This document shows, one piece after another, positions 11,382 through 32,842 of a DNA stretch of 64,000 nt. Origin of the DNA: Paralcaligenes ureilyticus (lineage in GTDB: Bacteria; Pseudomonadota; Gammaproteobacteria; Burkholderiales; Burkholderiaceae_B); NCBI RefSeq assembly GCF_004346225.1, contig NZ_SMAJ01000005.1, positions 186,001-250,000 on the forward strand, written 5' to 3'. The notes beneath the pieces were generated by a model. It was given only the letters and a program-made list of their open reading frames with translations. It ran no database searches and was not told the origin of the DNA. Numbering within the stretch: the stretch's first letter is position 1; every line of letters begins with the position of its first letter. Position numbers and translations under genes: made by a program.

Positions 11382-12355
11382 GCCGGCGCTCCATTCAGGA
11401 TGCAGCGCCAGCGATGATCGTGTTCGGATGTGTGCACGGGCACCGTTACTCGACAACGTTCTTGCGCATGCGGGCAGCGCTCGCGAAAACCGCAGCCCTG
11501 GAATTCGCCGATCAAGGAGGGCACCACGCCCGGTATGGTGCCCAGCCTTCCGCCCGGCGCGGTGCGCCCCGGCACGGGAATGCAGCTTAGCAAGCCTTGC
11601 GTATACGGATGGCGCGGGTCGGCAAAGAGGTCGTGCGCCAGGCCTTCTTCGACGACCTCTCCGGCGTACATGACGGCCACGCGGTGGGCAATGCGCGCCA
11701 CCACGCCCAGATCGTGGGTAATGAGTATCATGGCGATGCCCAGTTCCTGCTGCAGGTCGGCGAGCAACCGCAGAATCTGTGCCTGTATGGTCACATCCAG
11801 CGCCGTGCTGGGTTCGTCGGCAATCAGCAGCTCGGGGCTGCACATCAGCGCCATGGCAATCATGACCCGCTGGCGCAACCCGCCGGATAACTGATGAGGG
11901 TACTGGTCGAGGCGCTGGGCGCTGGAGGTGATGCCTACTTTTTCCAGCAAGTCGATGGCTCGTGCGCGGGCCTCGGCCGCGCTGCTGCGTCGATGCTGCA
12001 GGTAGGACTCCATCAACTGGTTGCCGATGGTATAGGCGGGATTCAAGGCGGTCATGGGTTCCTGGAAGATCATGGCCATCTTGTTGCCGCGCAAGGCATT
12101 GATGCGTTTTTTGTCGGCCGCGGCCAAGTCTTCGCCTAAAAAAGAAAGGTGCTGCGCGCTGCGCTTTGCCACCTTGGGCAGCAGGCTCATCAAAGCCAGC
12201 GAAGTCATGGATTTGCCGCAACCCGATTCGCCTACCAGGCACAAGGTCTCGCCGCGCCGAACCTGGAACGAGACATTGCGTACGGCGTGCAGCGGGCCGT
12301 TTGGCGTGGCCAGATCGACATTCAGGCCCTGGACGTCCAGAACGATGTTGTCCAT
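11378..12355 (-). CDS. Peptide ABC transporter ATPase, DppD/OppD type
   Basis: This 325-aa ATPase pairs with the DppF-type subunit. It has Walker [10 protein letters not shown], with a terminal M where S/T is usual (the family tolerates this), signature LSGGLRQR, Walker [13 protein letters not shown], and the OppD/F C-terminal region with [13 protein letters not shown]. The gap to the permease gene upstream is four bases. Together with the permeases at 12360 and 13429 and the binding protein at 14487 it completes a five-component importer. Confidence 0.92.
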
Positions 12356-12359
12356 AGGC

Positions 12360-13307
12360 CTAAGACCTCCCTTCGGGCGAGAGTAGATCGTGCAGCCCGT
12401 CGCCCGCCAGGTTGATCGAGAAAATCAGCAAGGCCAGCGCGCTGCCCGGCAAGGCAATAAGCCAGAACGAAAAAAACATATAGGTCTTGGCTTCCGAAAT
12501 CATCAGCCCCCAGGAAGGCAACGGCGGTTGCACGCCCAGGCCCAGAAAGGACAGTGCGGCTTCGAGCAGAATGGCGCTGGCTGCTTCAAGGGTAGCGATC
12601 ACGATCAGATGAGGAACGACATTGGGCAGCACCTCTTGCAACAGTATCCGCAAGGTGGAGGCTCCCGCCGATTGTGCGGCTGCTACGTAATCCAGCGAAC
12701 GTACTTGCTGAGTGGCGCTGCGCATGACCACGGCATAACGGTCCCATTTGAGCAGGCCCAGCACGATGATGACTACCCACAAAGAGCTGCCCATGATCGC
12801 AACGGTGGCCAATGCGACCAGTATCACCGGCATCGACAGACGGGTTGTCACCAGGAAAGACACGAGCATGTCGGTCTTGCCGCCGAAATAGCCGGCCAGC
12901 ATACCCATGGTTGCGCCTATCAGCCCGGAAATCAGGGCGACGCTGGCACCGATAAGCAGGGAAATGCGCGCACCGTAAAACAGGCGCGAAAGATAGTCGC
13001 GACCCAGCGGATCGGTGCCCAGGGGGTGCACCCAGGACCCTCTGGCATACCAAACGGGGGGGACGTTGCGGTTGATCAGGTTTTGCGTGTAGGGATCGTG
13101 CGGCGATAGCCAGGGGGCGAAGATGGCAATCAGGAAGATCAGCAGCAACAGGCCACCGCCCACCATGAACGCCTTGTTGCGCCGCGCGCGGCGCCAGAAA
13201 CCGTGTTTGGAAATGGCTGCGCCAGGCGCGTTTGCGGGTGCGCCACTCATGGTGTTTCCCGTGTCGATCGCGACCGCGGATTCTTTGCCTGAGCTGTTTG
13301 ATTTCAT
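12360..13307 (-). CDS. Peptide ABC transporter permease, DppC type
   Basis: This 315-aa inner-membrane permease has six predicted helices. The N-terminal OppC/DppC segment KAFMVGGGLLLLIFLIAIFAPWLSPHDPY is followed by the EAA-loop region DYVAAAQSAGASTLRILLQEVLPN, which docks on the ATPase. ATG at 13307 is used; a TTG two codons upstream (13313) is possible. A composite hairpin repeat separates it from the DppB-type gene, so the two permeases may be expressed at different levels. Confidence 0.92.
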   Translation of the reverse strand: MKSNSSGKESAVAIDTGNTMSGAPANAPGAAISKHGFWRRARRNKAFMVGGGLLLLIFLIAIFAPWLSPHDPYTQNLINRNVPPVWYARGSWVHPLGTDPLGRDYLSRLFYGARISLLIGASVALISGLIGATMGMLAGYFGGKTDMLVSFLVTTRLSMPVILVALATVAIMGSSLWVVIIVLGLLKWDRYAVVMRSATQQVRSLDYVAAAQSAGASTLRILLQEVLPNVVPHLIVIATLEAASAILLEAALSFLGLGVQPPLPSWGLMISEAKTYMFFSFWLIALPGSALALLIFSINLAGDGLHDLLSPEGRS

Positions 13308-13339
13308 GTTCAAGGCGTCTCAATGGGCGGTCGGGTTTT

Positions 13340-14486: not shown

Positions 14487-16028
14487 CTACTTCCAGCTCA
14501 TTTCCCAGAAACGCACCAGCTCATCGGGATAGGCCTTGAAACTCAATTCCTTGTTGGCCACGTAATAGACCGGCAATGACCACAACGGTACGCCGTAGGC
14601 CTGGTCGGCGATCCGGTCCAGCGCCTTTTTGTAGGCATCTTTGCGCACCTGCGGGTCGACCGAGTTGTTGCCTTTATTCAGCCATTCGATCACTTGTTTG
14701 TCATGGGTTACGTCGTCCGAGCCGCCGCCATAAAACACCGGTGTCGATGCCGATACATCGTTCACCGAAAAGGAACCCCAGGTTTGATTGACCAGTTCCG
14801 ACTTGTTGGAGCGGTTCATGTCGCGCATGGCGGCGTATTGCAGGAAGTTGAGTTTGGCCTTGATTCCTACCGCTTTCAGGTTGCCGATAATGGCTTCGAT
14901 CTGGTTGCGTTCGCGATAGGCCAGGATGCTGATGTCAAAGCCATTGGGAAAGCCCGCTTCGGCCAACAGCTTTTTCGACAAGGCCGGGTCGTACGTGTAG
15001 CGCGGTGCGCCTTCGTCGGTGCAGCCGAACTGCGAGGGGAAGCACATGGTGTTGAGGACCCGTGCACCCGCCCCGACAATATTCTTGGCAATGGAGGCGC
15101 GGTCTATGGCATGGATAATGGCCTGGCGCACTCGTATGTCTTTTAACTGGGGCAAGGGAGAACCGTCGCGCATGTTCATCTGAAGAAACGAAATCCGCAT
15201 GGTTTCGCCGCTGACCACTTGCAGGTTCGGCACCTGGGCGGCCTGATCGGCCTGATCCTTGGGCACGTACATGATGAAGTCCACGCCCGAAGACAGTGCC
15301 TCGGCCATCTGGGTCTGGCGGTCTGGAATAAAGCGGATTTCAATTTTGCCGATCTTGGCATGCGCCTTGGGCGAATCGGCGAAATAATGGGGGTTGCGCA
15401 CCAGCGTAATCGACTTGCCCGGGGTGTATTGCGACACCATGTAGGGGCCTGTGCCGACGGGCTTGGCATTCATGCCTTTAGGGCCCACCTCTTTGTAGTA
15501 TTTGGCAGGGTGTATGACCACGGGGCCCGCCAGATACTCGATAGCGGCCGGGAACACCCCTTTGGTGGTCAGCCTTACCTTGTATTTGCCCAGCTTTTCG
15601 GCCTTTGCAATCCAGTTGACGTTTTGCTGGGTGGTTACCTTGTTTTTGGGGTCGGCAATGAAGTTGAGCGTGTACACCACCGAATCCGCGTCGAAGTCTT
15701 CGCCATTGTGAAATTTGATGCCCTGGCGCAATTCGAAATCGATCGTGTGGTCATCGACCTGCTTCCAGCTTTTGGCCAGCAGCCCTTTGTATTCATTGGT
15801 TTCCGGGTCGCGGTAAATGAGCGTATCCCAGACATTGGCGCCGATGATCACGCCTATGCGCACATTATTGAAGTAGGGATCCACGCTTTCGGGTGCCTGA
15901 TCGTAGGCAAAACGCAGCGTATCGTCTTTTTTGTTGGCCGATGCCGGGCCGCTGAAGGCCATCAAGCCGCTTACGAGCGAGCAGACGGCAAGCCGCGCCA
16001 CCCAGTGTCCGGTTTTCAGAATATTCAT
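14487..16028 (-). CDS. Peptide ABC transporter binding protein, DppA type
   Basis: This 513-aa periplasmic binding protein belongs to family 5 (DppA/OppA/NikA). A signal peptide lies at residues 1-31 (cleavage after PASA). Family landmarks are FAYDQAPESVDPYFNN, GLLAKSWKQVDDHTIDFELRQGIKFHNGEDF and PVGTGPYMV. The ATG at 16028 has a strong GGAGG site. It is the first gene of a seven-gene operon running down to 7808. A FadR-type palindrome lies about 55-65 bases upstream. Two M20 peptidases in the same operon point to a peptide or N-acylated amino acid as substrate. Confidence 0.93.
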   Translation of the reverse strand: MNILKTGHWVARLAVCSLVSGLMAFSGPASANKKDDTLRFAYDQAPESVDPYFNNVRIGVIIGANVWDTLIYRDPETNEYKGLLAKSWKQVDDHTIDFELRQGIKFHNGEDFDADSVVYTLNFIADPKNKVTTQQNVNWIAKAEKLGKYKVRLTTKGVFPAAIEYLAGPVVIHPAKYYKEVGPKGMNAKPVGTGPYMVSQYTPGKSITLVRNPHYFADSPKAHAKIGKIEIRFIPDRQTQMAEALSSGVDFIMYVPKDQADQAAQVPNLQVVSGETMRISFLQMNMRDGSPLPQLKDIRVRQAIIHAIDRASIAKNIVGAGARVLNTMCFPSQFGCTDEGAPRYTYDPALSKKLLAEAGFPNGFDISILAYRERNQIEAIIGNLKAVGIKAKLNFLQYAAMRDMNRSNKSELVNQTWGSFSVNDVSASTPVFYGGGSDDVTHDKQVIEWLNKGNNSVDPQVRKDAYKKALDRIADQAYGVPLWSLPVYYVANKELSFKAYPDELVRFWEMSWK

Positions 16029-20334: not shown

Positions 20335-20514
20335 TATGTCTTCTCCTGTGGAGTATTTTTTAAGGGAGATAAGGCCCCTGCCCGCTGTATCATAGATGAG
20401 TCGGTGATTTATGGCTACTGCGGCGTTTTGGCTGGTATTGCGGCCCTATGCCGTTCACCACCGCCGCCTTGATTGCATCGCCACTCGCTTTACCCGATGA
20501 TTGGGGGAAACGTT
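20335..20514. promoter_or_regulatory. Divergent intergenic region, iron-type ABC operon / carotenoid oxygenase
   Basis: This 180-base region must hold promoters for both the minus-strand importer and the plus-strand oxygenase gene. GGGGGA at about 20502 serves as ribosome-binding site for the ATG at 20515. No repeat or clear operator is seen. Confidence 0.35.
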
Positions 20515-21951
20515 ATGACGCACAATGGAAATGACGCAGATAGCCGCGTTTGGCTAGCGGGCCTGGGAAGCTCGATGACGGTAGAACATGATTACTACCC
20601 TCAAGTCGACGGGCTGTTGCCGGGCGGGCTGCAAGGCACGCTTTATCGCAATGGGCCGGGGCGCTTCGAGCTGGGGGGCGTGCGCAAGCAACATTTGCTC
20701 GATGGCGACGGCATGGTCCAGGCCTTTGATTTTCGCGCCGGCAAGGTTCGCTATCGCAATCGTTTTGTGCGTACCGAGAAGTATCTGGCCGAAGAGCTGG
20801 CCGGCCGATTGACCCTGCCCACCTGGACCACTCTGGCACCGGGCGGAGCGCTGCAGAATATGGGCAATCGCATTAAATCGCAGGCCGGGGTAACGGTCGT
20901 ATTGAAAAATCGCCGCTTATACGCCTTTGACGAGGTGGGCTTGCCTTATGGCCTGGACCCGCAAACCCTGGACACCTTGGGCGCGCAGGCGGTGGGCTCG
21001 CCGGATGCGCGCCCGGATTACAAGGCTCATACCAAGACCGATCCTAAAACGGGCGCCTGGCTATTGCTGGGCGTTGAGCATGGGCCGCGCATGCATCTGC
21101 ACTTGGCCGAACATGCGGCTGATGGCGCGTTGCAACGCCATCAGCGCATCCCGGCGCCGCGTTCCGTTTACATACACGACTGGTTCGCAACGCAGCGCTA
21201 TGCGCTTGTTTTGCTGCATCCGGTAAAGCTGGGGCTGGCCCGGTTTTTGAGCGGCTGGAACAGTTTCACCGATAGCCTGCAATGGAAGCCGGAACTGGGC
21301 AATCTGCTGATGATCATTGACCGCGAAGGCGTCAAGGCGCCCATTGTTCTGGAAACGTCCGCGTGTTTCATGTGGCATAGCCTCAATGCCTTCGAAATGA
21401 ACGATTCCATCATTGCCGATTTTGTGGGCTACGATAAGCCTGATCATTTTCTTGGGCCCAATGCCGCTTTCAGGGCCATTATGCAAGGCCGGCAGGGCGA
21501 GCAGAACTACGCAGGCACCGTTCGTCGCTACGTGATCAACCCCGAACAAAGGCAAATTACCGAAGATGTGCTAAGTGGCGACAACCATGAGTTTCCCATG
21601 GTCGACCCTCGCGTTGCGGGCGGTCGTTATCGTTATGGCTATTTCGCTACCGCGCCGCACACGACCGTTTTCCATAACGGGCTGGCCCGGCTGGATGTCC
21701 AGGGTGGCGGGCGCGAAGTCGCGTATATGGGCAATGACGTTCATCTGGGCGAGCCGATATTTGTGCCTGACGGCATGGCGGACAATGAGCCGGGCTGGCT
21801 ATTGTCGTTGGGCCTGGATGGAAAAACCGGAAATTCGTTTTTAGGTGTTTTTCGCGCAGAGCGCCTGGCCGACGGGCCGGTATGCAGGGTGCTGCTTGAG
21901 CATTCCACCCCGTTGAGCTTTCACGGCTGGTGGCATGGACGCGCGGTTTGA
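20515..21951 (+). CDS. Carotenoid oxygenase (RPE65/CCO) family protein
   Basis: This 478-aa non-heme iron(II) oxygenase cleaves conjugated double bonds of carotenoids, stilbenes or lignin-derived phenylpropanoids. The four iron-ligand histidines of the seven-bladed propeller are all in place: H172 (AHTKTDP), H221 (IHDWFAT), H288 (WHSLNAFE) and H470 (FHGWWHG). The N-terminal GTLYRNGPGRFE and HLLDGDGMV blocks are also family hallmarks. ATG at 20515 is preferred over a TTG at 20473 because GGGGGA stands about seven bases before it. No carotenoid synthesis genes are nearby, so an imported or aromatic (lignostilbene-like) substrate is plausible. Confidence 0.93.
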   Translation: MTHNGNDADSRVWLAGLGSSMTVEHDYYPQVDGLLPGGLQGTLYRNGPGRFELGGVRKQHLLDGDGMVQAFDFRAGKVRYRNRFVRTEKYLAEELAGRLTLPTWTTLAPGGALQNMGNRIKSQAGVTVVLKNRRLYAFDEVGLPYGLDPQTLDTLGAQAVGSPDARPDYKAHTKTDPKTGAWLLLGVEHGPRMHLHLAEHAADGALQRHQRIPAPRSVYIHDWFATQRYALVLLHPVKLGLARFLSGWNSFTDSLQWKPELGNLLMIIDREGVKAPIVLETSACFMWHSLNAFEMNDSIIADFVGYDKPDHFLGPNAAFRAIMQGRQGEQNYAGTVRRYVINPEQRQITEDVLSGDNHEFPMVDPRVAGGRYRYGYFATAPHTTVFHNGLARLDVQGGGREVAYMGNDVHLGEPIFVPDGMADNEPGWLLSLGLDGKTGNSFLGVFRAERLADGPVCRVLLEHSTPLSFHGWWHGRAV

Positions 21952-22620: not shown

Positions 22621-23838
22621 TTAACGTTTAGACCATGAAGGTATGGGATATTGGGGTTGGTCCATGAACTTCTGCCCGTTAAAAACGGGTTTGACGGCGC
22701 CATCTTGAACTTGGATGACGGTTTGGTCCAGGTTGATTTGCCCGGTTGCGCTAAACGCAATCTTTCCGTACAGGCTATCAAAGTCACTGGCAGCGATCGC
22801 ATCGCGCACCTTTCCAGGGTCGAGCGAGTTGGCTTTTTCGATGGCGTTGACGATGGTTTCAACGTCAGCCACTCCGGACGCTACATGATAGTCGGGCTCA
22901 TAGCCATATTTCGCCGCGTACGCTGTGGCAAATTGCTTGGCATCGCCGAACCATTTGTCTTTGCGCGATGTGCTGGGCAGCCACGCCGTCATGCCAAAGG
23001 CGTAGTCGGCATCCTTGCCCAATGCTTTGCGAAAATCTTCGCTGGGCACCCCTACGGTAAACGAATAGATATGGGGATTGACGTCAAGGCTTTTAGCCTG
23101 GCGTATGAAATTCAGGATTTCAGTTTCGTGGCCGCCCACTAAAACCGCATCGACTTTTCTTGATTTGATTTGCGATAGCAGGGAGCTGAAGTTGGTGGTG
23201 TTGGTACTGAAGCGTTCGTCCATCACCAAATTCAGTCCGGCTGCCTTTAGCAAGGGACGCGTATTTTTGGCCAGGGTTACATCAAAGGAGTCGTCGGCAC
23301 AAAGCAGTGCCACCGACGCAGGCACAGGATGCAGCTTGGTTAACATGGCTACGGTGCTGCGAAAATAGGCGCTTCCCGGCGCCAGCGTGCCGAAAATATA
23401 GTGAAAGTTACGAGAGAAAATTTCGTCCGAAGCGCCACCGCCTTCCACCATGGGCACATGATATTTTTCCGAAACCGCAGAGTCGGCGACGGTAAAGTTG
23501 CTGCCGTAAGGGCCGAGCAAGAAATTGACTTTGTCGTGAGATACAAGCTGCGTATATTGCCGCACGCTCAAGTTGACGTCTGATTGATTGTCGTAGAGTT
23601 TCAAGGCTAGGTGGTATGTTTTCTGGCCGACCTTGATGCCTCCGGCAGAGTTGATTTTATCGACAGCAAACTTGTATGCGTCCGGGTAGTAGCGGCCCGT
23701 ATTTGAAATGGGCCCGGTCAACTGTATGGATGCCCCCAAAACGATTTCGGCTGGTGCGGCCTGGACGTTGCTGAGCAAAAAAGAGAGGGTGAGGGCAGTG
23801 AGGGCCACCGGGATAATGCGTGTAGATATTAAAGGCAT
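22621..23838 (-). CDS. Branched-chain amino-acid-type ABC binding protein (orphan)
   Basis: This is a 405-aa type-1 periplasmic binding protein (LivJ/HAAT family). A signal peptide lies at residues 1-27 (VQA-AP). The mature N-terminus [38 protein letters not shown] is characteristic. ATG at 23838 is chosen because GGAGA lies about seven bases before it; an ATG at 23850 is possible. No permease or ATPase genes lie nearby, so it either borrows a distant transporter or serves as a sensor. It is divergent from a LysR gene that probably controls it. Confidence 0.9.
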
Positions 23839-23913
23839 GCTTGTCTCCATGTTGGATATTTTTTTGATATTTTTACCGATTGCATTTTGGCAGACGAGCT
23901 TGTTTAATGTCCA

Positions 23914-23929
23914 CAACAATCTATTGTTG
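23914..23929. promoter_or_regulatory. Palindrome in the LysR / binding-protein intergenic region
   Basis: The perfect 7-bp inverted repeat CAACAAT-CT-ATTGTTG lies between the divergent binding-protein (23838) and LysR (23956) starts. This is the expected place for a LysR activator site, but no family consensus beyond dyad symmetry is claimed. Confidence 0.45.
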
Positions 23930-23955
23930 GTCATTATTCCAACTGACGCATTAAA

Positions 23956-24918
23956 TTGCCTAGACAGGGGACTTCCATCCATCCTGCAAATTTTCCAGAT
24001 ATCGGTGCAAAGGAACTTCTTGCCATTGTTGCGGTGGCCGAATGCGGGAATTTCATCGCTGCGTCGTTGACCCTGAACATGTCTCAACCTGCCTTGACGA
24101 GAACCGTCCAGCGTGTCGAGCAGCAGATAGGGGTTGCGCTTTTTCGACGTAGTACCCGCCATGTCGAGATCACTCCCGCCGGACAGGAATTTGTCGCCGT
24201 GGCGTTGCGCATCCTTGATGACTTGCGTATCTCGTTGACAAACATGCGCGAAATCGCCGACGAGCAGCGAGGGCAAGTCATCGTGTCTGCCGTCATGTCG
24301 GTCGCGCACACTTCGCTGGCGCGCATGGTGGCTCGCTATCGAACGGATCGCCAAGGCGTTGAAGTTCATATCCGCGAAGGACTGCACGGCACGGTGCTTG
24401 AAGATGTCCGAAGTGGCATCGCCGATTTGGGCATAACGTACATCGACGAAGTGCATCCGGCCCTGGATTGCATCCCGCTGGGCTCGGAAGCCTTGCATGT
24501 TGTTTTGCCGGTGGGGCATCCGCTCGCAGGCCAGAGGGGCATACCTTTCATTAAACTGCGTGGACTGCAACTGGTATCGCTACCCAGGGAATCGCGGATC
24601 CGCAGGATCGCCGACCTGGCTGCCACTTCGGCCGGATTCAGCTTGATGCATTCGGTCAGCGTGACCCAGTTCGCCACCCTCATTCAATTTGTCCTCGCAG
24701 GGGTCGGCATTGCGATTGTTCCCGGTGGCGCGTTGCCCGAAGCATTAAGCGCCGGCCTGGCCGCACGCCCCATCGTGCAGCCTTCCATCAGCAGGGAATT
24801 GGGCGTCATCACATTAAGGAACAGAAGCCTGGCTCCGGCGGCCAGCAGCTTTTTGGACCTGATCCGGCAGCAATGGCCGGCCAGCGAACGCAAGCGGGGT
24901 AAGGGCAAGCGATCTTGA
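23956..24918 (+). CDS. LysR-family transcriptional regulator
   Basis: This 320-aa regulator has an N-terminal winged HTH (about 16-75: [43 protein letters not shown]) and a C-terminal effector-binding domain from about residue 105. The start is uncertain: TTG at 23956 is the first in-frame candidate, and no strong ribosome-binding site is seen. It is divergent from the orphan binding-protein gene and upstream, in the same direction, of the 371-aa/CGSC gene pair, so it could control either. The effector is unknown. Confidence 0.88.
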
Positions 24919-25049
24919 CACAGCCCTGCCGGCACAAGTGGATATATGCATAAATAGGAATAATAAAAAGAAATAGATTGTTATTGTCATAAATAGGCTT
25001 GATTCGGTATTCTTGGATGAACCCAGCATTCACCGTAAGGAGCTTCGAC

Positions 25050-26165
25050 ATGGCGGCAACATTGGAACGCACTGAATTAACAATGGAGATGGTCAGCCCC
25101 GATGTGGATCTGGTGGAGTATTACTTCGAACGCGGATTCACCGACGGCTTGCCCGTCGTTCCGCCCACCCAGGAAAAAGTGTCTGAAGTCGTTGCGGCTT
25201 TGGGAGGCAAGCCGGAATTCGTCGAGTGCCGTGTGGCGCCGCGTTGGGGCGAGCTTAGCCGCGAAATCCTGGCCATCAATATGGTGATGGCGGGATGCAA
25301 GCCTGAATACGCCCCGGTCGTGCGGGCGGCCATGCTGGCCCTTACCGACCCGGCATTCAATCTCAATGGTGTCCAGGCGACTACGCATGTAGCCTCGCCG
25401 CTTATCGTGGTAAACGGTCCTATTGCCCGGGAAATCGGCATGAATGCGGGATGCAATGCCTTCGGGTCCGGCAATCGCGCCAACGCCACTATCGGCCGCG
25501 CGGTTCGGTTGATCATGTTGAATGTCGGCGGCGGCTGGCCGGGCGACCTGGACAAGAGCACCTTGGGCCATCCGGGAAAATACACCTATTGCGTAGCTGA
25601 AAATGAAGCCGCAAGCCCGCTCGCGCCGTATCACGTGGAACATGGCTACAAGGCTGAAGACAGCACAGTGTTCGTCATCGCGGCCGAAGCGCTGCATAGT
25701 GTCACCAATCATATTGCCAATGATCCCGAAGGCATTCTGGACACGATCTGCTCGGCCATGAGCACCATTGCCTCGAACAGCGCCGTGCTTGGAGGCCACT
25801 GCACGGTCGTACTGGGGATGGAGCATGCGCATGCGATCGCACGCCACGGTTGGTCGCGTGCCGACATTCGCAACTATATCTGGACCAACCATGGCAACCG
25901 CTTTATCGATCTGGCGTACGGGCATCGTTATGGCAAGGTTTATAACCGCAATCTGCCCAAGTGGTACAAGCGCGAGCCGGACACGATCATCCCCATCACA
26001 CCCAGCCCCGATCACATCCACCTGTTCGTCATCGGCGGCGACGCCGGCCAGTTCTCGGGCTTGATCCCGGGCTGGGGACACATGAGCACTCCGGTCTTGC
26101 GTGCGATCGATCCAAGGGTCGACACCGTAGAATCCGACTGCACCGACGGCGCCTGCGCCCTTTAA
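25050..26165 (+). CDS. Protein of unknown function paired with the UGSC-type protein
   Basis: This 371-aa soluble protein has no signal peptide. ATG at 25050 follows AAGGAG by seven bases. Segments that look structurally conserved are RGFTDGLPVVPPTQEKV (about 29-45), INMVMAGCKPEYAPVV, NGVQATTHVASPLIVVNGPIAREIGMNAGCNAFGSGNRANATIGRA (about 106-150) and a long NVGGGWPGDLDKSTLGHPGKYTYCVAENE. The chain ends with a cysteine pair in CTDGAC (C364, C369). I do not recognise a characterised family. The gene directly precedes the CGSC-motif gene by 16 bases, and the two are probably co-transcribed. A thiol-dependent reaction or substrate handoff is an inference from this pairing. Confidence 0.8.
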   Translation: MAATLERTELTMEMVSPDVDLVEYYFERGFTDGLPVVPPTQEKVSEVVAALGGKPEFVECRVAPRWGELSREILAINMVMAGCKPEYAPVVRAAMLALTDPAFNLNGVQATTHVASPLIVVNGPIAREIGMNAGCNAFGSGNRANATIGRAVRLIMLNVGGGWPGDLDKSTLGHPGKYTYCVAENEAASPLAPYHVEHGYKAEDSTVFVIAAEALHSVTNHIANDPEGILDTICSAMSTIASNSAVLGGHCTVVLGMEHAHAIARHGWSRADIRNYIWTNHGNRFIDLAYGHRYGKVYNRNLPKWYKREPDTIIPITPSPDHIHLFVIGGDAGQFSGLIPGWGHMSTPVLRAIDPRVDTVESDCTDGACAL

Positions 26166-26181
26166 TCTCAAGAGGCTTGTT

Positions 26182-26745
26182 ATGTTGCAAAAAGTCGATA
26201 CCCGCCAAGTTCGCGTTTATGATCCGCGCGGGCTCATTCGCGCCGAGAATGTTGCGCTGGCCCCACGGGCTGGCAAGCTCGACGGCTTGCGCCTGGGCGT
26301 CCTGGACAATGCCAAGTGGAATGCCAACAAGCTGCTGCGCGGCGCCATGGCCGCCTTGGGCGAAAGCGTCAAGTTTGCCCAAGTGAATTATTACGTGAAG
26401 CACAGTTTCTCAAAAGACGCGTTTCCCGAATTGATCGAAAAAATTGCCGCCGAAAACGATATTGTTTTGACCGCAATCGGCGATTGCGGCTCATGCACCT
26501 CGGCGTGCATACGTGACGCCATCGCACTGGAAAAACGCGGCATACCCACTGCCGCCATCGTTACCACGGAATTCGTGCGCGAAACCGCTTTGACCCGTAC
26601 GGCCTTGGGCATGGCGGAACTGGAGCCGATCATTATTAGCCACCCGGTTAGTTCAATCACCCAGGAACAGGTTGATCAGCGCGTCGCGCAAATCAAGACC
26701 CAATCACAAGCGGTATGGTTGGGGGACAAACTTCGTATCGGCTGA
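26182..26745 (+). CDS. UGSC-family (seleno)protein homologue, cysteine (CGSC) form
   Basis: This 187-aa protein matches the UGSC family, in which a UGSC or CGSC motif sits in a Rossmann-like fold and selenocysteine may replace the first cysteine. Here the motif is AIGDCGSCTSAC with C102, C105 and C109. Flanking family blocks are LGVLDNAKWNANKLLRGA (about 38-55), VKHSFSKDAFPELIEKIA and LEKRGIPTAAIVTTEFV. The codon at the first motif position is TGC, so no selenocysteine is used here. A redox or thiol-based catalytic role is likely from the CxxC arrangement; the reaction is not established. The stop faces a small minus-strand gene ending six bases further on. Confidence 0.88.
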   Translation: MLQKVDTRQVRVYDPRGLIRAENVALAPRAGKLDGLRLGVLDNAKWNANKLLRGAMAALGESVKFAQVNYYVKHSFSKDAFPELIEKIAAENDIVLTAIGDCGSCTSACIRDAIALEKRGIPTAAIVTTEFVRETALTRTALGMAELEPIIISHPVSSITQEQVDQRVAQIKTQSQAVWLGDKLRIG

Positions 26746-28020: not shown

Positions 28021-28962
28021 TTACTGGAAGATTTTAGTGAACCACGCCTTGGCATCATAAACGAGCTGCTTGCCGCGGCTTGGCACATTGTCCATCGCCA
28101 GGGGAGTCGGGGCCTGGGTCCAGTCGACCATGGATCCCGGGTATAGCTTGACGTCTTTCTTGCCTAGAACTTCCGACATGGCAAACCAGTTTGTGGCGGC
28201 CCAGTGACCTGTGTTGCAGAAGGACACGTCCTCGCTCTCGCCTTTGATTCCTGACTTGGTCCAGATTTTTTGGGCATCCTGGGCGGAGACAAAAGTCGAG
28301 GTGCCGGGTTTGAACCATTTGTCGTTGTCGAAATTAATGGCGGTATGGATCGTGCCTGATATTTTCGCGGCGGGATGGCGAACGTCACCATTGAAAAATT
28401 CCGGAGGACGCGCGTCGATCAGCCGGGTATGGGGATTGCCGATTTGCTTGGCAACTTCGTCGCGCGATGCGATGAGGTTTTGATCCAGCGTTGGAGTGTA
28501 TGCACTGGGGGTTACCTTGACGGCGGCGCGATCCTGTTCCAATGAAGCGGCGCTCCACGCTTTGACGCCGCCATTTAGAATGGATAAATCTTTCAGCCCC
28601 AGGACTTTCAGTGTCCAGTAAACTCGCGCGGATGCGCCGAAGTCCGTTGAATCGGCACCGGAAGAAACCACCACGGCGTGTGTATCGGGGCTAAGCCCCA
28701 GGCTTTGGATGAGCGCGGTCAATTTTGCCAGCGGCGGGAGTTCTCCCGGGTTGGTCGCCGGGCCGCGCCATTTCCCGTAGGGGGCGGATACGGCGCCTGG
28801 TATATGGTTGCTGTTGTACTCTTTGCTGGGACGCACATCGATCACGCGCACCGCCGGGTCTGTTATCAATGGCTTGAGCTCTGCGGGCGTGAGCAAAGGT
28901 GTGGCGGCAAAGCTCAATGAGGCAAAACCCATGCCGATCACAAGCGCGATAATTTTTTTCAT
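28021..28962 (-). CDS. Exported two-domain rhodanese (thiosulfate sulfurtransferase)
   Basis: This 313-aa protein is predicted to be periplasmic, with a signal peptide (residues 1-20, cleavage SFA-AT) and two rhodanese domains (about 25-150 and 165-290). Only the second domain keeps a catalytic cysteine in its loop (SFCNTGHWA); the corresponding loop of the first reads VSSGADSTD, as usual for tandem rhodaneses. ATG at 28962 has AGGGG upstream. It heads an operon with the YeeE transporter and a 54-aa peptide. It likely transfers sulfane sulfur before or during uptake. A 16-bp palindrome overlaps its promoter. Confidence 0.9.
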   Translation of the reverse strand: MKKIIALVIGMGFASLSFAATPLLTPAELKPLITDPAVRVIDVRPSKEYNSNHIPGAVSAPYGKWRGPATNPGELPPLAKLTALIQSLGLSPDTHAVVVSSGADSTDFGASARVYWTLKVLGLKDLSILNGGVKAWSAASLEQDRAAVKVTPSAYTPTLDQNLIASRDEVAKQIGNPHTRLIDARPPEFFNGDVRHPAAKISGTIHTAINFDNDKWFKPGTSTFVSAQDAQKIWTKSGIKGESEDVSFCNTGHWAATNWFAMSEVLGKKDVKLYPGSMVDWTQAPTPLAMDNVPSRGKQLVYDAKAWFTKIFQ

Positions 28963-29021
28963 GCATGACCCCTGAAATAATGGTCGATAAAACCCAGGCA
29001 CTATTATTTCAACTTTTTCTT

Positions 29022-29125: not shown

Positions 29126-30061
29126 TCAAGGCGTCAGCAAACCACCGAAACGCTGATAGAAGTAGGGGGCGGCTTCGGGTGCGTGATCGTCTTCTCGTCG
29201 CAGGGTGTCCAGAATATAACGCTCGGCGCGTTCGACGCTTAAGCTGTAAATGGCGCGGCAAAGCTCATAAGCGCGAGTGCCCGCCCAGTTCGCGGGCAGC
29301 AACTCCAGCGGCAATAGCGGGTCGTGCAGATGCAGGCGTCGATACTCGTGTATCAATAAAGTGCGAATAATGAAAGCCTGCTCTGGATCGATCGCCTTTT
29401 TTTGTTCGAGGAGTGCTTGCGCCGGCGCAAAGCGGGCGGTAAAGGCCTCGTAGTCGTCGGCAACGGCGCCCAACTGCCAGCATTGGCCGATCAGGTCGCC
29501 CAGCGGCCGGCCTTCCAGCGCCTCGGTCTGAGTGGCGGAGCATACAAAGACCTTGGATTTGATCCGGGCGCGAGTCAGTATGTCGTCGAGCGTGTCGTGA
29601 TTGGCGCGCGGGTGTATGAAAACCATGGGTGCGACGGACCCGAAACCTTCCCAAAGCAATTCGCGGCGTAGATCGGCGCGCTGTTTGGCGTTGAGTGCAT
29701 CGGCGGCGGCAAATACCAGCGTCCATATGCCGTCCCACTCCAGGCTGGCGGGTTCGTAGATCCGTCGGTAGGCCAGTTCGAAGCGGCGTGCCGCTGTGCT
29801 GCTCAATGCGTACAGGCTGCGACGCCCCTCGCGCTGGGCGCTAAGCCAGCCTTCTTCGGCCAGGCGAAACACGCTGGTGCGGACCAAGCGGTCGTTAACG
29901 CCAAAGGGCGCCAGTAGCCGGATCAGGCTCCCCAGCCAAAGGGCGCCGCCGTGCGGTCGGATTACATCGCCAAACAAGGTCATGACCAAAGACTTTGCGC
30001 GCGGCGGGCTTAGTGCGATGAGCTGTTCAGTCCAGTATTGCGGCGCAGGGGAAGTCGTCAT
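29126..30061 (-). CDS. PaaX-family transcriptional regulator
   Basis: This 311-aa regulator belongs to the PaaX family, GntR-like repressors of phenylacetate degradation that respond to phenylacetyl-CoA. The N-terminal domain (about 10-85) has SLVMTLFGDVIRPHGGALWLGSLIRLLAPFGVNDRLVRTSVFRLAEEGWL, the central part RRIYEPASLEWDGIWTLVF, and the C-terminal PaaX_C region LLPANWAGTRAYELCRAIY. ATG at 30061 is preferred to an upstream in-frame start. No paa catabolic genes are in the window, so its targets lie elsewhere or it has been recruited to the neighbouring sulfur locus. Confidence 0.9.
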   Translation of the reverse strand: MTTSPAPQYWTEQLIALSPPRAKSLVMTLFGDVIRPHGGALWLGSLIRLLAPFGVNDRLVRTSVFRLAEEGWLSAQREGRRSLYALSSTAARRFELAYRRIYEPASLEWDGIWTLVFAAADALNAKQRADLRRELLWEGFGSVAPMVFIHPRANHDTLDDILTRARIKSKVFVCSATQTEALEGRPLGDLIGQCWQLGAVADDYEAFTARFAPAQALLEQKKAIDPEQAFIIRTLLIHEYRRLHLHDPLLPLELLPANWAGTRAYELCRAIYSLSVERAERYILDTLRREDDHAPEAAPYFYQRFGGLLTP

Positions 30062-30226
30062 GAGTGTGATGGCAGTGGTGCGATTCTGGTTTTCAGGATG
30101 GATGGCCAATAGGTTCTGCGGCACGGCGTCCGACGATATAGTAAGGCCACTATCCCCGGATTTCCAGGCAGGCCGAGTTTGAGTTCGATGTTTTCGATAG
30201 TTGGCCTTGACGGTCAACGGTTTTAT

Positions 30227-30294
30227 GGCACCCACAAGGGGTGCCGCTACGAAATGTGAACGTGAATTTTGTAGCGACAGGCCTTGTGCCTGTC
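30227..30294. repeat. Composite ACAAG repeat, mixed types A and D
   Basis: Plus type A (30227-30251), 18-base spacer, minus type D with arms GACAGGC/GCCTGTC (30270-30294). It lies in the 313-base region between the PaaX start and the serine-hydrolase stop, which otherwise holds no gene. Confidence 0.9.
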
Positions 30295-30374: not shown

Positions 30375-31982
30375 TTAATTCCCCCGCCTCACAAAAGTGC
30401 CCTGGCCGTTCCTGTTGAGGAATTCGATCATCAGGCTTTTTCCCTTTCCCGTATCGCTCATGGTGAAGTCGGCAGACGAGACGGAGCCGGGCGGTTCATA
30501 TTGCGTTGAAAGCGGGAATACAAATCTGTTTTTGCCCCAGGGCTGAAGTGTATATTTCCGGTTTTGCGGCCCAATAGTCAGCAAAAGCTTGCCGGCATGG
30601 TCTTTGACGGTGATGGGGCCAAAGTAGTTATTGGTGTAGGTGCCTGTGTAGGACGCCGGCGGCGAACCTGTATTCGCCTGCATGGGCGGATGTTGCCCCG
30701 CGAGCTCGCCAAAAGGCGTGTCCATCCCTGCCATCGCGTTGGCGTAGAGGCTATACCAATCGCGGGTAATGGTGCCAAGCTGGACCAGCTCGGTGAACTC
30801 CACCGCCAAGGCTTCGACGGCTCCTACGGGCGAGGCATTGCTTAGTACCACGATTCCGACATGGGCCGAAGGGATCAACTCGAACGTTGTTGCCACGCCC
30901 TCCGTTAGCGCGCCGGAGTGACTGAGCATCACTCGTCCGCTGGGCTGGATGCCTACGTTAAAACCATAACCGTAAAAAGATGACCGGGCGCTGGCCGAGG
31001 TGGGCCGGTGCGTTAGGGTCTGGGGCGTGATGGCCGGCAATAGTGCGTCTTTGGCGACGATCCGGCGGCCTTGATAGCGGCCGTACTGCAATACCATGGC
31101 CATCCATTTAGCCATGTCATTGGCTGAAGAACTGGCCCCTCCTGCCGGCGCCTGGGAGTCGGTTTGCGGTGTGTAGATGGCCTCGAAGCCGTGCGCGCCG
31201 CGGATATGCGCGTAAGCGCGATCGCTGCGCTTTGCGAAATCGGCATAGCGCGAACTGGTAGAGCTCATGCCTAGTGGGCCGTACAACACATTCTGCGACA
31301 GCGTCGCCCAGTCTTCGCCCGATGCCGCTGCGACGGATTCGGCGGCGGCGGTCAACCCCATACTGCTGTAGCTGTATGAATTGCGAAATGGCTTGAGCCG
31401 CAGGAATCGCAGGCTTTTGATGATTTCCTGTTTATTGTAGCCCAGGTTTATTAAATCTTCGCCGGCCAGATCGGGCAGGCCCGAGCGATGCGAAAACAGG
31501 TCGCCGATGGTGACGTGTTGCGTCACCCACGGATCGTCCAGTGCGAACCATGGCAGGTGTTTTACGACGGGAGTTTTCCAGCGAATAATGCCTTCGCCCA
31601 CCTGATGCGCAACGACGGTGGACCCAAGAGCTTTTGACAATGATGCCAGTTGAAACACAGTGTCGGCATCAACCCGCGCGTCTTCGCCGATTTTTCGTAC
31701 GCCAAAACCCTTGGCATAGACCGTTTTGCCGTCTTTGACAACGGCTACCGACATTCCGGGTATGCCGCTTTTTTTCATAACGCTATCGGCCAAGGCGTCG
31801 AGCTGAGCAATCGCCCTGTCGATCTGACCATCGACGATGGGAACCCCGGCCGTTCGCTCCGGTGCCAGCTGAGAGGCCGTAGGCGGGGTAGGTGCCGCGT
31901 GCGCCATCGCCGACAACATGAACACGGCGCTTATGCCCAGCGCCGCCGTGTGGACAGGCCGGAGAACGAATGATGAAATCAT
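30375..31982 (-). CDS. Exported beta-lactamase-fold serine hydrolase
   Basis: This 535-aa protein has a signal peptide (1-30, AHA-AP), a class C beta-lactamase/PBP-like domain (about 50-400) and a C-terminal DUF3471-type beta domain. The catalytic SxxK is S114-LSK117. The Y-x-S/N element is in SYSYSSMGL and the third motif is HSG in LSHSGALTEG. This family includes esterases, D-aminopeptidases and inactive relatives; real beta-lactam resistance is not implied. ATG at 31982 has GAGGG upstream, and an in-frame extension would cross a degenerate hairpin repeat. Confidence 0.88.
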   Translation of the reverse strand: MISSFVLRPVHTAALGISAVFMLSAMAHAAPTPPTASQLAPERTAGVPIVDGQIDRAIAQLDALADSVMKKSGIPGMSVAVVKDGKTVYAKGFGVRKIGEDARVDADTVFQLASLSKALGSTVVAHQVGEGIIRWKTPVVKHLPWFALDDPWVTQHVTIGDLFSHRSGLPDLAGEDLINLGYNKQEIIKSLRFLRLKPFRNSYSYSSMGLTAAAESVAAASGEDWATLSQNVLYGPLGMSSTSSRYADFAKRSDRAYAHIRGAHGFEAIYTPQTDSQAPAGGASSSANDMAKWMAMVLQYGRYQGRRIVAKDALLPAITPQTLTHRPTSASARSSFYGYGFNVGIQPSGRVMLSHSGALTEGVATTFELIPSAHVGIVVLSNASPVGAVEALAVEFTELVQLGTITRDWYSLYANAMAGMDTPFGELAGQHPPMQANTGSPPASYTGTYTNNYFGPITVKDHAGKLLLTIGPQNRKYTLQPWGKNRFVFPLSTQYEPPGSVSSADFTMSDTGKGKSLMIEFLNRNGQGTFVRRGN

Positions 31983-32020
31983 GGACCCTCGGCGCAAAAA
32001 ACAGGGATGGGCTCGTCGCT

Positions 32021-32045
32021 TGTAGTGGCAGCCTTTGTGACTGCC
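32021..32045 (-). repeat. Degenerate ACAAG-family hairpin
   Basis: Minus orientation, arms GGCAGTC/GGCTGCC with one T.G wobble and loop ACAAA; tail ACTACA. Confidence 0.75.
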
Positions 32046-32104
32046 AAAATCGTCGACAATCGAGGCCGCATCGTCGAACCGACAGTGTGTGAGCCTATAA
32101 GACA

Positions 32105-32842
32105 CTACCCTTCACGGCCGTCAAAGTGCGCTGTCGGTGCTGGGTCCGACGTGGCCCGTCCCAGCCTGGCACCTCGTGCCGAGGCCGCATAAATTGCCTC
32201 GCCGCGATTATGTACGCCGAGCCGTTGGTACACGCTATCGGTGTGCACCTTGGCCGTAGCGACTGAAATATTCAGGTTGCGTGCTACCGCTTTTATGGGA
32301 TTCCCGCGGGCCAACAAAACAAGCACCTCGTATTGTCGGGGCGTGAGTCCCAGCATGGCGGCCTCGGTACCCGCGGGAACCGGCTTGCTCTCGCTCTTGC
32401 CGGATATCTCCGTGTCGGGAATGTTGGTCGACCGATGCGGTATTTCGGGGGCGTCGCCCATGCGCTGGGGGAAGCAGAGCCCTCCTGCGAGCACGACTCT
32501 GACACAGGCAAGAAAGACTTCCGGCGCGGACTGTTTATTGATCAGCCCGGCCACGACGGCCGGCAACCCTTGCATGGAGTCCGTGGTAGGCTCGCCTTCC
32601 GACATGAGTATCATGGACTTTGGCGAATAGGCCCGGTTACTGGCTGCAATCAGCGAGTCTCGTCTTTCGGGCGACGAAACAGATAGCAATACCAGCGTGG
32701 CCTGACGAGTTTTATCGGGCTCCACGTCCAGGTCGGAATAGGCGTGTCCCGATACGGTGACCTCGGGTGTCAGGCCGGACAGCAATTGCACAATTCCAGC
32801 TCTAAAGAAAACATTACGTTCAATTACCACAATCTTGGTCAT
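32105..32842 (-). CDS. LuxR-type regulator with degenerate receiver domain
   Basis: This 245-aa protein is organised like a NarL/LuxR response regulator. It has a receiver-like domain (1-125), a linker (125-175) and a GerE HTH (about 178-232: GLTPRQYEVLVLLARGNPIKAVARNLNISVATAKVHTDSVYQRL). The receiver lacks the acidic pair (IERN where IADDH is usual) and the phospho-acceptor aspartate (LVLLSVSSP where VLMDLxMP is usual), while a lysine near GLINK remains. It is therefore unlikely to be controlled by phosphorylation. No histidine kinase is adjacent. GGAAGG supports the ATG at 32842. Confidence 0.85.
   Translation of the reverse strand: MTKIVVIERNVFFRAGIVQLLSGLTPEVTVSGHAYSDLDVEPDKTRQATLVLLSVSSPERRDSLIAASNRAYSPKSMILMSEGEPTTDSMQGLPAVVAGLINKQSAPEVFLACVRVVLAGGLCFPQRMGDAPEIPHRSTNIPDTEISGKSESKPVPAGTEAAMLGLTPRQYEVLVLLARGNPIKAVARNLNISVATAKVHTDSVYQRLGVHNRGEAIYAASARGARLGRATSDPAPTAHFDGREG

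Follow-up and report, generated by a model that had tools for sequence, protein, structure and literature searches.

Two adjacent genes of Paralcaligenes ureilyticus, at positions 25,050–26,745 of the window (the whole 64,000-nucleotide stretch of DNA analyzed here), look like the two halves of one enzyme when their sequences are compared across bacteria. The first gene (25,050–26,165, + strand, ATG start) encodes a 371-aa protein of no named family, hereafter the partner, and the second (26,182–26,745, + strand) encodes a 187-aa cysteine form of the UGSC selenoprotein family. We are aware of no measured activity, experimental structure or established substrate for such a pair. We lean, by a little over even odds, toward a two-component, thioredoxin-dependent thiol/selenol reductase acting in the catabolism of imported carboxylates. 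Such an enzyme would probably draw on electrons of the thioredoxin type and cleave a bond in small acids that the cell imports as nutrients.

The two genes are separated by 16 bases (26,166–26,181, + strand) containing a ribosome-binding-like stretch, AAGAGG, a layout from which co-transcription appears likely; the partner frame is open already from a TTG at 24,999. Directly upstream of the pair lies a LysR regulator (23,956–24,918, + strand), and several members of the window's clade also have LysR close upstream. On the other side, convergent with the pair, are a YeeE/YedE-type sulphur transporter (PF04143; 26,918–28,015) and a two-domain rhodanese (28,021–29,001), both on the − strand and both absent from the conserved neighbors of the clade relatives. 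The surroundings also contain a PaaX-type regulator (29,126–30,235, −), a beta-lactamase-fold protein (30,375–32,105, −) and an RPE65-type carotenoid oxygenase (20,473–21,951, +). REP-like palindromic repeats with the core GGCACCCACAAGGGGTGCCGCTACAAAA, often arranged as inverted pairs of about 77 nt, occur across the window, the largest family counting 22 copies between 3,237 and 55,816.

The two families travel together. When the phylum was sampled evenly (349 genomes, among them that of the window), 5 genomes proved to carry both families and 344 to carry neither; in one of the five (G334), a frame break interrupts the UGSC gene, whose site reads CGSC. Among 61 genomes, consisting of that of the window and 60 relatives, 6 contain the partner, and UGSC, sought in these six, is present in all of them. 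A wider partner search, with motifs, returned at least 558 relatives in named genomes, of which the best 80 were kept as loci (L050–L129). At 70 of these 80, a UGSC match lies no more than 1,743 nt away on the same strand (no more than 546 nt at 68), and for the other 10 (L068, L073, L075, L077, L087, L088, L103, L106, L109 and L113) it is found elsewhere in the genome. The possibility that homologues of the two genes would mostly occur apart, raised in the preliminary description, is thus at odds with the samples searched, in which the families were not found apart. These best 80 of at least 558 partner relatives come from Proteobacteria, Chloroflexota, Rokubacteria, Binatia, Poribacteria, Acidobacteria, Mycobacterium, a Natrialba archaeon and others. 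Some genomes hold many copies: 20 partner and 19 UGSC matches in one (G040), 8 and 6 in another (G047). The Poribacteria partners (L077, L087, L088 and L113), whose UGSC is not adjacent, lack a stretch before the C-terminal strand.

The two proteins are also joined in single reading frames. We counted 23 distinct fusions (L110 among them), 22 with UGSC first and one with the partner first. A UGSC/Unknown_1 fusion figures in Zhang & Gladyshev (2008; PMC2398784), where UGSC is joined to a second conserved domain, possibly the family of the window's partner. When the identity-distance matrices of partner and UGSC were compared, they were correlated over 95 pairs, fused pairs included (r = 0.872), over the 18 pairs of the window's clade (r = 0.796) and over 18 paralogous pairs within G040 (r = 0.844), and none of 2,000 shuffles reached the observed r in any of the three comparisons. 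Inside a single genome such as G040, species history cannot produce the correlation.

The natural fusion L019 (545 aa, 117 alignment rows) gave a predicted model with pLDDT 95.0 and pTM 0.93, the latter suggesting that both domains are placed with confidence. In this model, Sec108 lies between a strand (100–106) and a helix (109–124) of an alternating beta-alpha domain. Fusions, the fused model and matched divergence together lend support to a complex and, with it, to the earlier proposal of a two-component thiol enzyme, whose reaction we can only suggest.

Assignment of the 187-aa protein is straightforward: it scores 205.2 bits against PF24696 (E 1.1e-60, cut-off 25 bits) and 153.7 bits against NF041046 (E 3.4e-45, cut-off 125 bits), with CGSC at residues 102–105 (codons at 26,485–26,496, + strand). 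It is thus a full member of the UGSC family and, as had been recognized from its letters, the cysteine counterpart of the selenoprotein, with Sec and Cys exchanged at the same codon. The motif AIGDCGSCTSAC, with C102, C105 and C109, is present as first read; the three cysteines differ in conservation. In an alignment of 48 UGSC proteins (the window protein and 47 of 101 UGSC matches), position 102 is Sec or Cys in all 48, G103 is likewise invariant and C105 is kept in at least 90%, whereas C109 is not conserved. Serine replaces C105 in 3 of the 101 matches (L078, L090 and L116), and the fused frame of L110, a weak UGSC-like match outside the alignment, has neither Sec nor Cys at position 102.

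Selenocysteine is the prevailing form. Homologues with TGA at codon 102, whose existence the preliminary description had left to be sought, proved to be the majority: for 103 of 112 partners the motif of a nearby UGSC gene could be read, some of these partners sharing one UGSC gene, and codon 102 is TGA in 90 cases and Cys in 13; the other 9 partners were left out of the count. The exchange involved at least 4 changes on the tree. A tRNA-Sec of at least 71 bits was detected in 7 of 10 genomes tested, namely all five with Sec forms (G028, G040, G047, G198 and G368) and two with Cys forms (G025 and G038). In the window genome, G202 and G334, all with Cys forms, the tRNA-Sec search gave only matches of 46.7–51.5 bits, which we take to be other tRNAs since matches of like length and score recur in genomes with a strong one, although that of G202 (51.5 bits) exceeds the curated cut-off of 47. 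In G028 and G368, a tRNA-Sec lies less than 2 kb from the pair with SelA or SelB adjoining (loci L136, 2,717–6,801, and L135, 5,006–9,388), as if selenium use traveled with the UGSC enzyme. A further selenium gene, for the tRNA 2-selenouridine synthase MnmH (12,234–13,334 of locus L052), is seen near the pair of that locus.

UGSC is related in sequence to the Sec domain of the glycine and proline reductases GrdB and PrdB. At E 1 or better, 22 of the 48 aligned members match the GrdB model TIGR01917 (best 3.9e-6) and 19 the PrdB model TIGR04483 (best 2.7e-7), with 16, 12 and 10 matching GrdF, the general family and GrdH, respectively. Scanned singly at 0.01, 5 of 10 members match a GrdB/PrdB-type model and 5 none; the curated cut-offs of the GrdB, PrdB, GrdF and GrdH models are not reached in these scans, the best of the ten scoring 30.3 of 300, and the match of the window protein to PrdB is marginal (E 0.0087, 15.5 bits, cut-off 300). 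In L046, Sec (residue 110) falls inside the stretches aligned to GrdB 315–384 and PrdB 112–181. An hhalign comparison of UGSC with four GrdB-like proteins gave a probability of 91.6 (E 8.4e-7, 50 columns) with C102 placed over Sec; these four neighboring frames were named GrdB-like by their motif, VATUG[ST]CNRCGAT, and their place. They share with UGSC the UG[ST]C site, and GrdB/PrdB, like UGSC, is a Sec protein paired with a second subunit. UGSC differs in being a stand-alone domain far under the curated cut-offs.

The kinship does not extend to the partner. PF09338, which we take to be the GrdE/PrdA-type, pyruvoyl-bearing partner subunit, was found in 8 of 301 genomes of the phylum of G405 (the genome of L068, Chloroflexota). 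In that phylum, loci L145, L146, L147 and L151 hold GrdE/GrdB-like pairs with a Sec motif UGTC or UGSC. Homology of the partner to GrdE/PrdA was rejected (hhalign probability 0.2 against GrdE; 0 of 29 partners match PF09338 at 0.1), as was homology to GrdB (hhalign probability 0.7). With UGSC akin to GrdB and the partner to neither subunit, the Sec domain is shared with the amino-acid reductases and the second subunit is a different one.

Neighboring genes bear on electron supply and pathway. The locus nearest to the window by tree (L051, Candidimonas nitroreducens) has the order partner, UGSC, CoA-transferase III, thioredoxin reductase, Peripla_BP_6 binding protein and permease; its thioredoxin reductase is TrxB-like, carries CATC and exceeds the TIGR01292 cut-off. 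Using queries from L051 and L136, TrxR-like flavoproteins with a CxxC motif were found at 5 of 88 loci (L050–L129, L134–L140 and the window at 15,001–37,000), 4 of which have them adjoining the pair or in its cluster, these being counts taken without a background rate. In L136, and in L138 and L117 found by the queries, the gene adjoins the pair on the same strand; in L051 it is the second gene after UGSC and shares its strand, and in L139, also found by the queries, it sits on the opposite strand at a distance of about 2.4 kb. A simple motif scan showed no thioredoxin gene beside the pairs.

In the window, a Peripla_BP_6 solute-binding protein (22,621–23,955, − strand, start approximate) is homologous to the one in the pair's cluster of L051 (E 6.4e-210), so that it may bind the substrate; no homologue at 1e-15 was seen in the other loci of the 88. 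Neighbor open reading frames, called with a rough, composition-scored caller, included 7 LysR, 6 CoA-transferase III and 3 TctC among 130 at 17 clade loci. Four of these CoA-transferases, scanned singly, were nearest to succinate-glutarate, mesaconate or oxalate types, under the cut-offs; none was seen near the window's own pair. Outside the clade, TctC was the commonest neighbor (15 of 125 frames scanned of 245 predicted, counted without a background control). The remaining neighbors were diverse, with 128 and 156 Pfam families in the censuses inside and outside the clade, respectively. Transport genes, Sec/Cys exchange, the NrdA-like tail described below, TrxR-like neighbors and CoA-transferases suggest, taken together, a catabolic reductase.

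The same TrxR-like neighbors, with the UxxC motif, would also suit an enzyme of stress defense, a peroxidase or disulphide reductase of the thiol/selenol type, in which they and the tail would support peroxide or disulphide reduction, and UGSC is grouped with thiol oxidoreductases in PMC2398784 and PMC13188914. We nevertheless judge such a role unlikely: a single genome can carry twenty partner and nineteen UGSC copies, some pairs have genes for transporters and CoA-transferases in their vicinity, and UGSC is akin to the substrate reductases GrdB and PrdB, all of which speaks against it.

The partner itself, described from its letters as belonging to no nameable family, remained without a name in every comparison: Pfam and NCBIfam gave nothing for it at E 1, a PDB sequence was retrieved neither by the protein itself nor, at E 1, by a profile of its family, no family matches more than one of 29 aligned partner relatives, and no significant PDB sequence relative was found for either protein of the pair. 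Residues D32, P39, G123, P124, R150 and E184 are invariant in 112 partners (the E184 codon, in an AENE motif, at 25,599–25,601, + strand), with N145 kept in 110, C83 and N158 in 108, N122 in 101 and C181 in 90. The family-wide cysteine is C83, in an MAGC motif (codon at 25,296–25,298, + strand), replaced in only 4 of the 112.

The predicted model of the partner alone has pLDDT 87.4 and pTM 0.89, and neither Foldseek nor VIA gave it a clear fold; for the UGSC domain both programs gave only generic alpha/beta likenesses, in VIA best to Rossmann/receiver-like chains (Z up to 11.4 among the best 50 rows). Among PDB structures, Foldseek placed class I fumarases nearest to the partner, at E 8.0e-4 but with a TM-score of 0.25, and the VIA Z is 4.4 or less. 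Class I fumarase requires three cysteines for its iron-sulphur cluster, whereas the partner has two widely conserved ones (C83 and C181) and matches no such enzyme in Pfam or among PDB sequences. Still, the fumarase match could mark a non-redox lyase, isomerase, racemase or hydratase, in which C102 or Sec would be an acid-base catalyst or covalent nucleophile and the partner a fumarase-like domain. Some UGSC members point the same way, with 1 of 48 matching Asp_Glu_race (0.021), 3 Asparaginase_C (best 9.3e-5) and 1 class I fumarase (0.0018). The low TM-score and Z of the fumarase match weaken this explanation, and the retention of C105, the preference for Sec and the TrxR-like neighbors favor redox chemistry, so that we hold it to be quite unlikely.

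The C-terminal tail distinguishes the window's clade. The partner ends SDCTDGACAL, with cysteines C364 and C369 (CTDGACAL, a CX4C tail, codons at 26,139–26,162, + strand). The CTDGAC ending noticed earlier is real in the window, but it is not a family trait, being kept in the window's clade only (19 of 112 partners). Within that clade (SH-aLRT 100 in a quick tree built without bootstrap, with long-branch warnings elsewhere), all 19 members end C-x2-G-x-C-x-[LIV]; among the other 93 partners, a few of which are cut at contig ends, a CX4C near the end is seen only in L049, in a different form. This relative, a fusion not belonging to the tail clade, has the ending CGSDACVI, possibly a second origin of a CX4C tail.

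NrdA of E. coli K-12, the class I ribonucleotide reductase, closes with GCESGACKI, an identical pattern equally far from the chain end, so that CTDGACAL in the window compares with CESGACKI in E. coli. In NrdA, the tail is the relay by which thioredoxin delivers electrons to the active site. The likeness is confined to the tail. Pfam gives the partner no match, to ribonucleotide reductase or otherwise, and the 28-residue tail alone found no match in the PDB. The window genome's own NrdA was rejected as a model because it ends CEVCQ, in another arrangement; the likeness is therefore to E. coli NrdA. Since the other clades lack the cysteine pair, the tail cannot be the general electron path of the partner family. 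That CTDGAC instead binds a metal ion or stabilizes the fold in an otherwise identical two-component reductase would fit its presence in one clade only and the different end of the genome's own NrdA, yet we find this improbable given its place at the very chain end, its low confidence or disorder in the model (residues 358–363 and 366–371 below pLDDT 50), its NrdA-like spacing and end, and the thioredoxin reductase in the cluster of the nearest relative, L051.

For the two-component reductase, we infer a working complex, a redox cycle, a type of bond and a substrate along the following lines. The UGSC subunit would provide the catalytic nucleophile, C102 here and Sec in most relatives, which sits where a helix begins; the surrounding domain is Rossmann/flavodoxin-like and akin to the one that bears Sec in GrdB/PrdB. 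C105 would act as the resolving thiol. Most of the other conserved residues belong to the partner (D32, R150, E184, N122-G-P and C83), which probably forms the substrate site. The substrate would be a small carboxylate imported by the neighboring binding-protein transporter, and attack by C102 would lead to reductive cleavage of a carbon–heteroatom bond. C105 would then release the product, leaving a disulphide, or a selenenyl sulphide in the Sec forms. In this clade, the flexible CX4C tail could carry electrons from thioredoxin reductase and thioredoxin to that disulphide, as the NrdA tail does, and the acid product would be activated by a family III CoA-transferase and then oxidized.

The accessible parts of earlier reports (PMC2398784, PMC13188914 and PMC9312934) present UGSC as a selenoprotein family that is uncharacterized or Trx-like, its fold probably of the Trx type, and draw no tie to GrdB; our comparisons link it to a single partner family and to GrdB/PrdB. 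Literature searches on UGSC, its accessions and UGSC with glycine reductase returned no title telling a function, and searches on selenoproteins with reductase terms, or on lineage names, returned nothing on the UGSC–partner pair among the titles listed.

More broadly, and as a tentative view that we hold at rather less than even odds, UGSC and its partner may represent a large class of two-component reductases, most of them dependent on selenium, that has been overlooked and in which a GrdB-type selenol module is combined with a new substrate subunit. Spread over many phyla and present in up to 20 copies per genome, each perhaps with its own substrate, these enzymes would break carbon–heteroatom bonds of organic acids with thioredoxin-type electrons, and the window would hold a cysteine form with an acquired ribonucleotide-reductase-like redox tail. 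With UGSC paired to one partner family unnamed in Pfam and NCBIfam and akin to GrdB/PrdB, the function of this selenoprotein family becomes testable, through the partner subunit, the conserved residues, the electron donor and, as a route to the substrate, the transporter protein.
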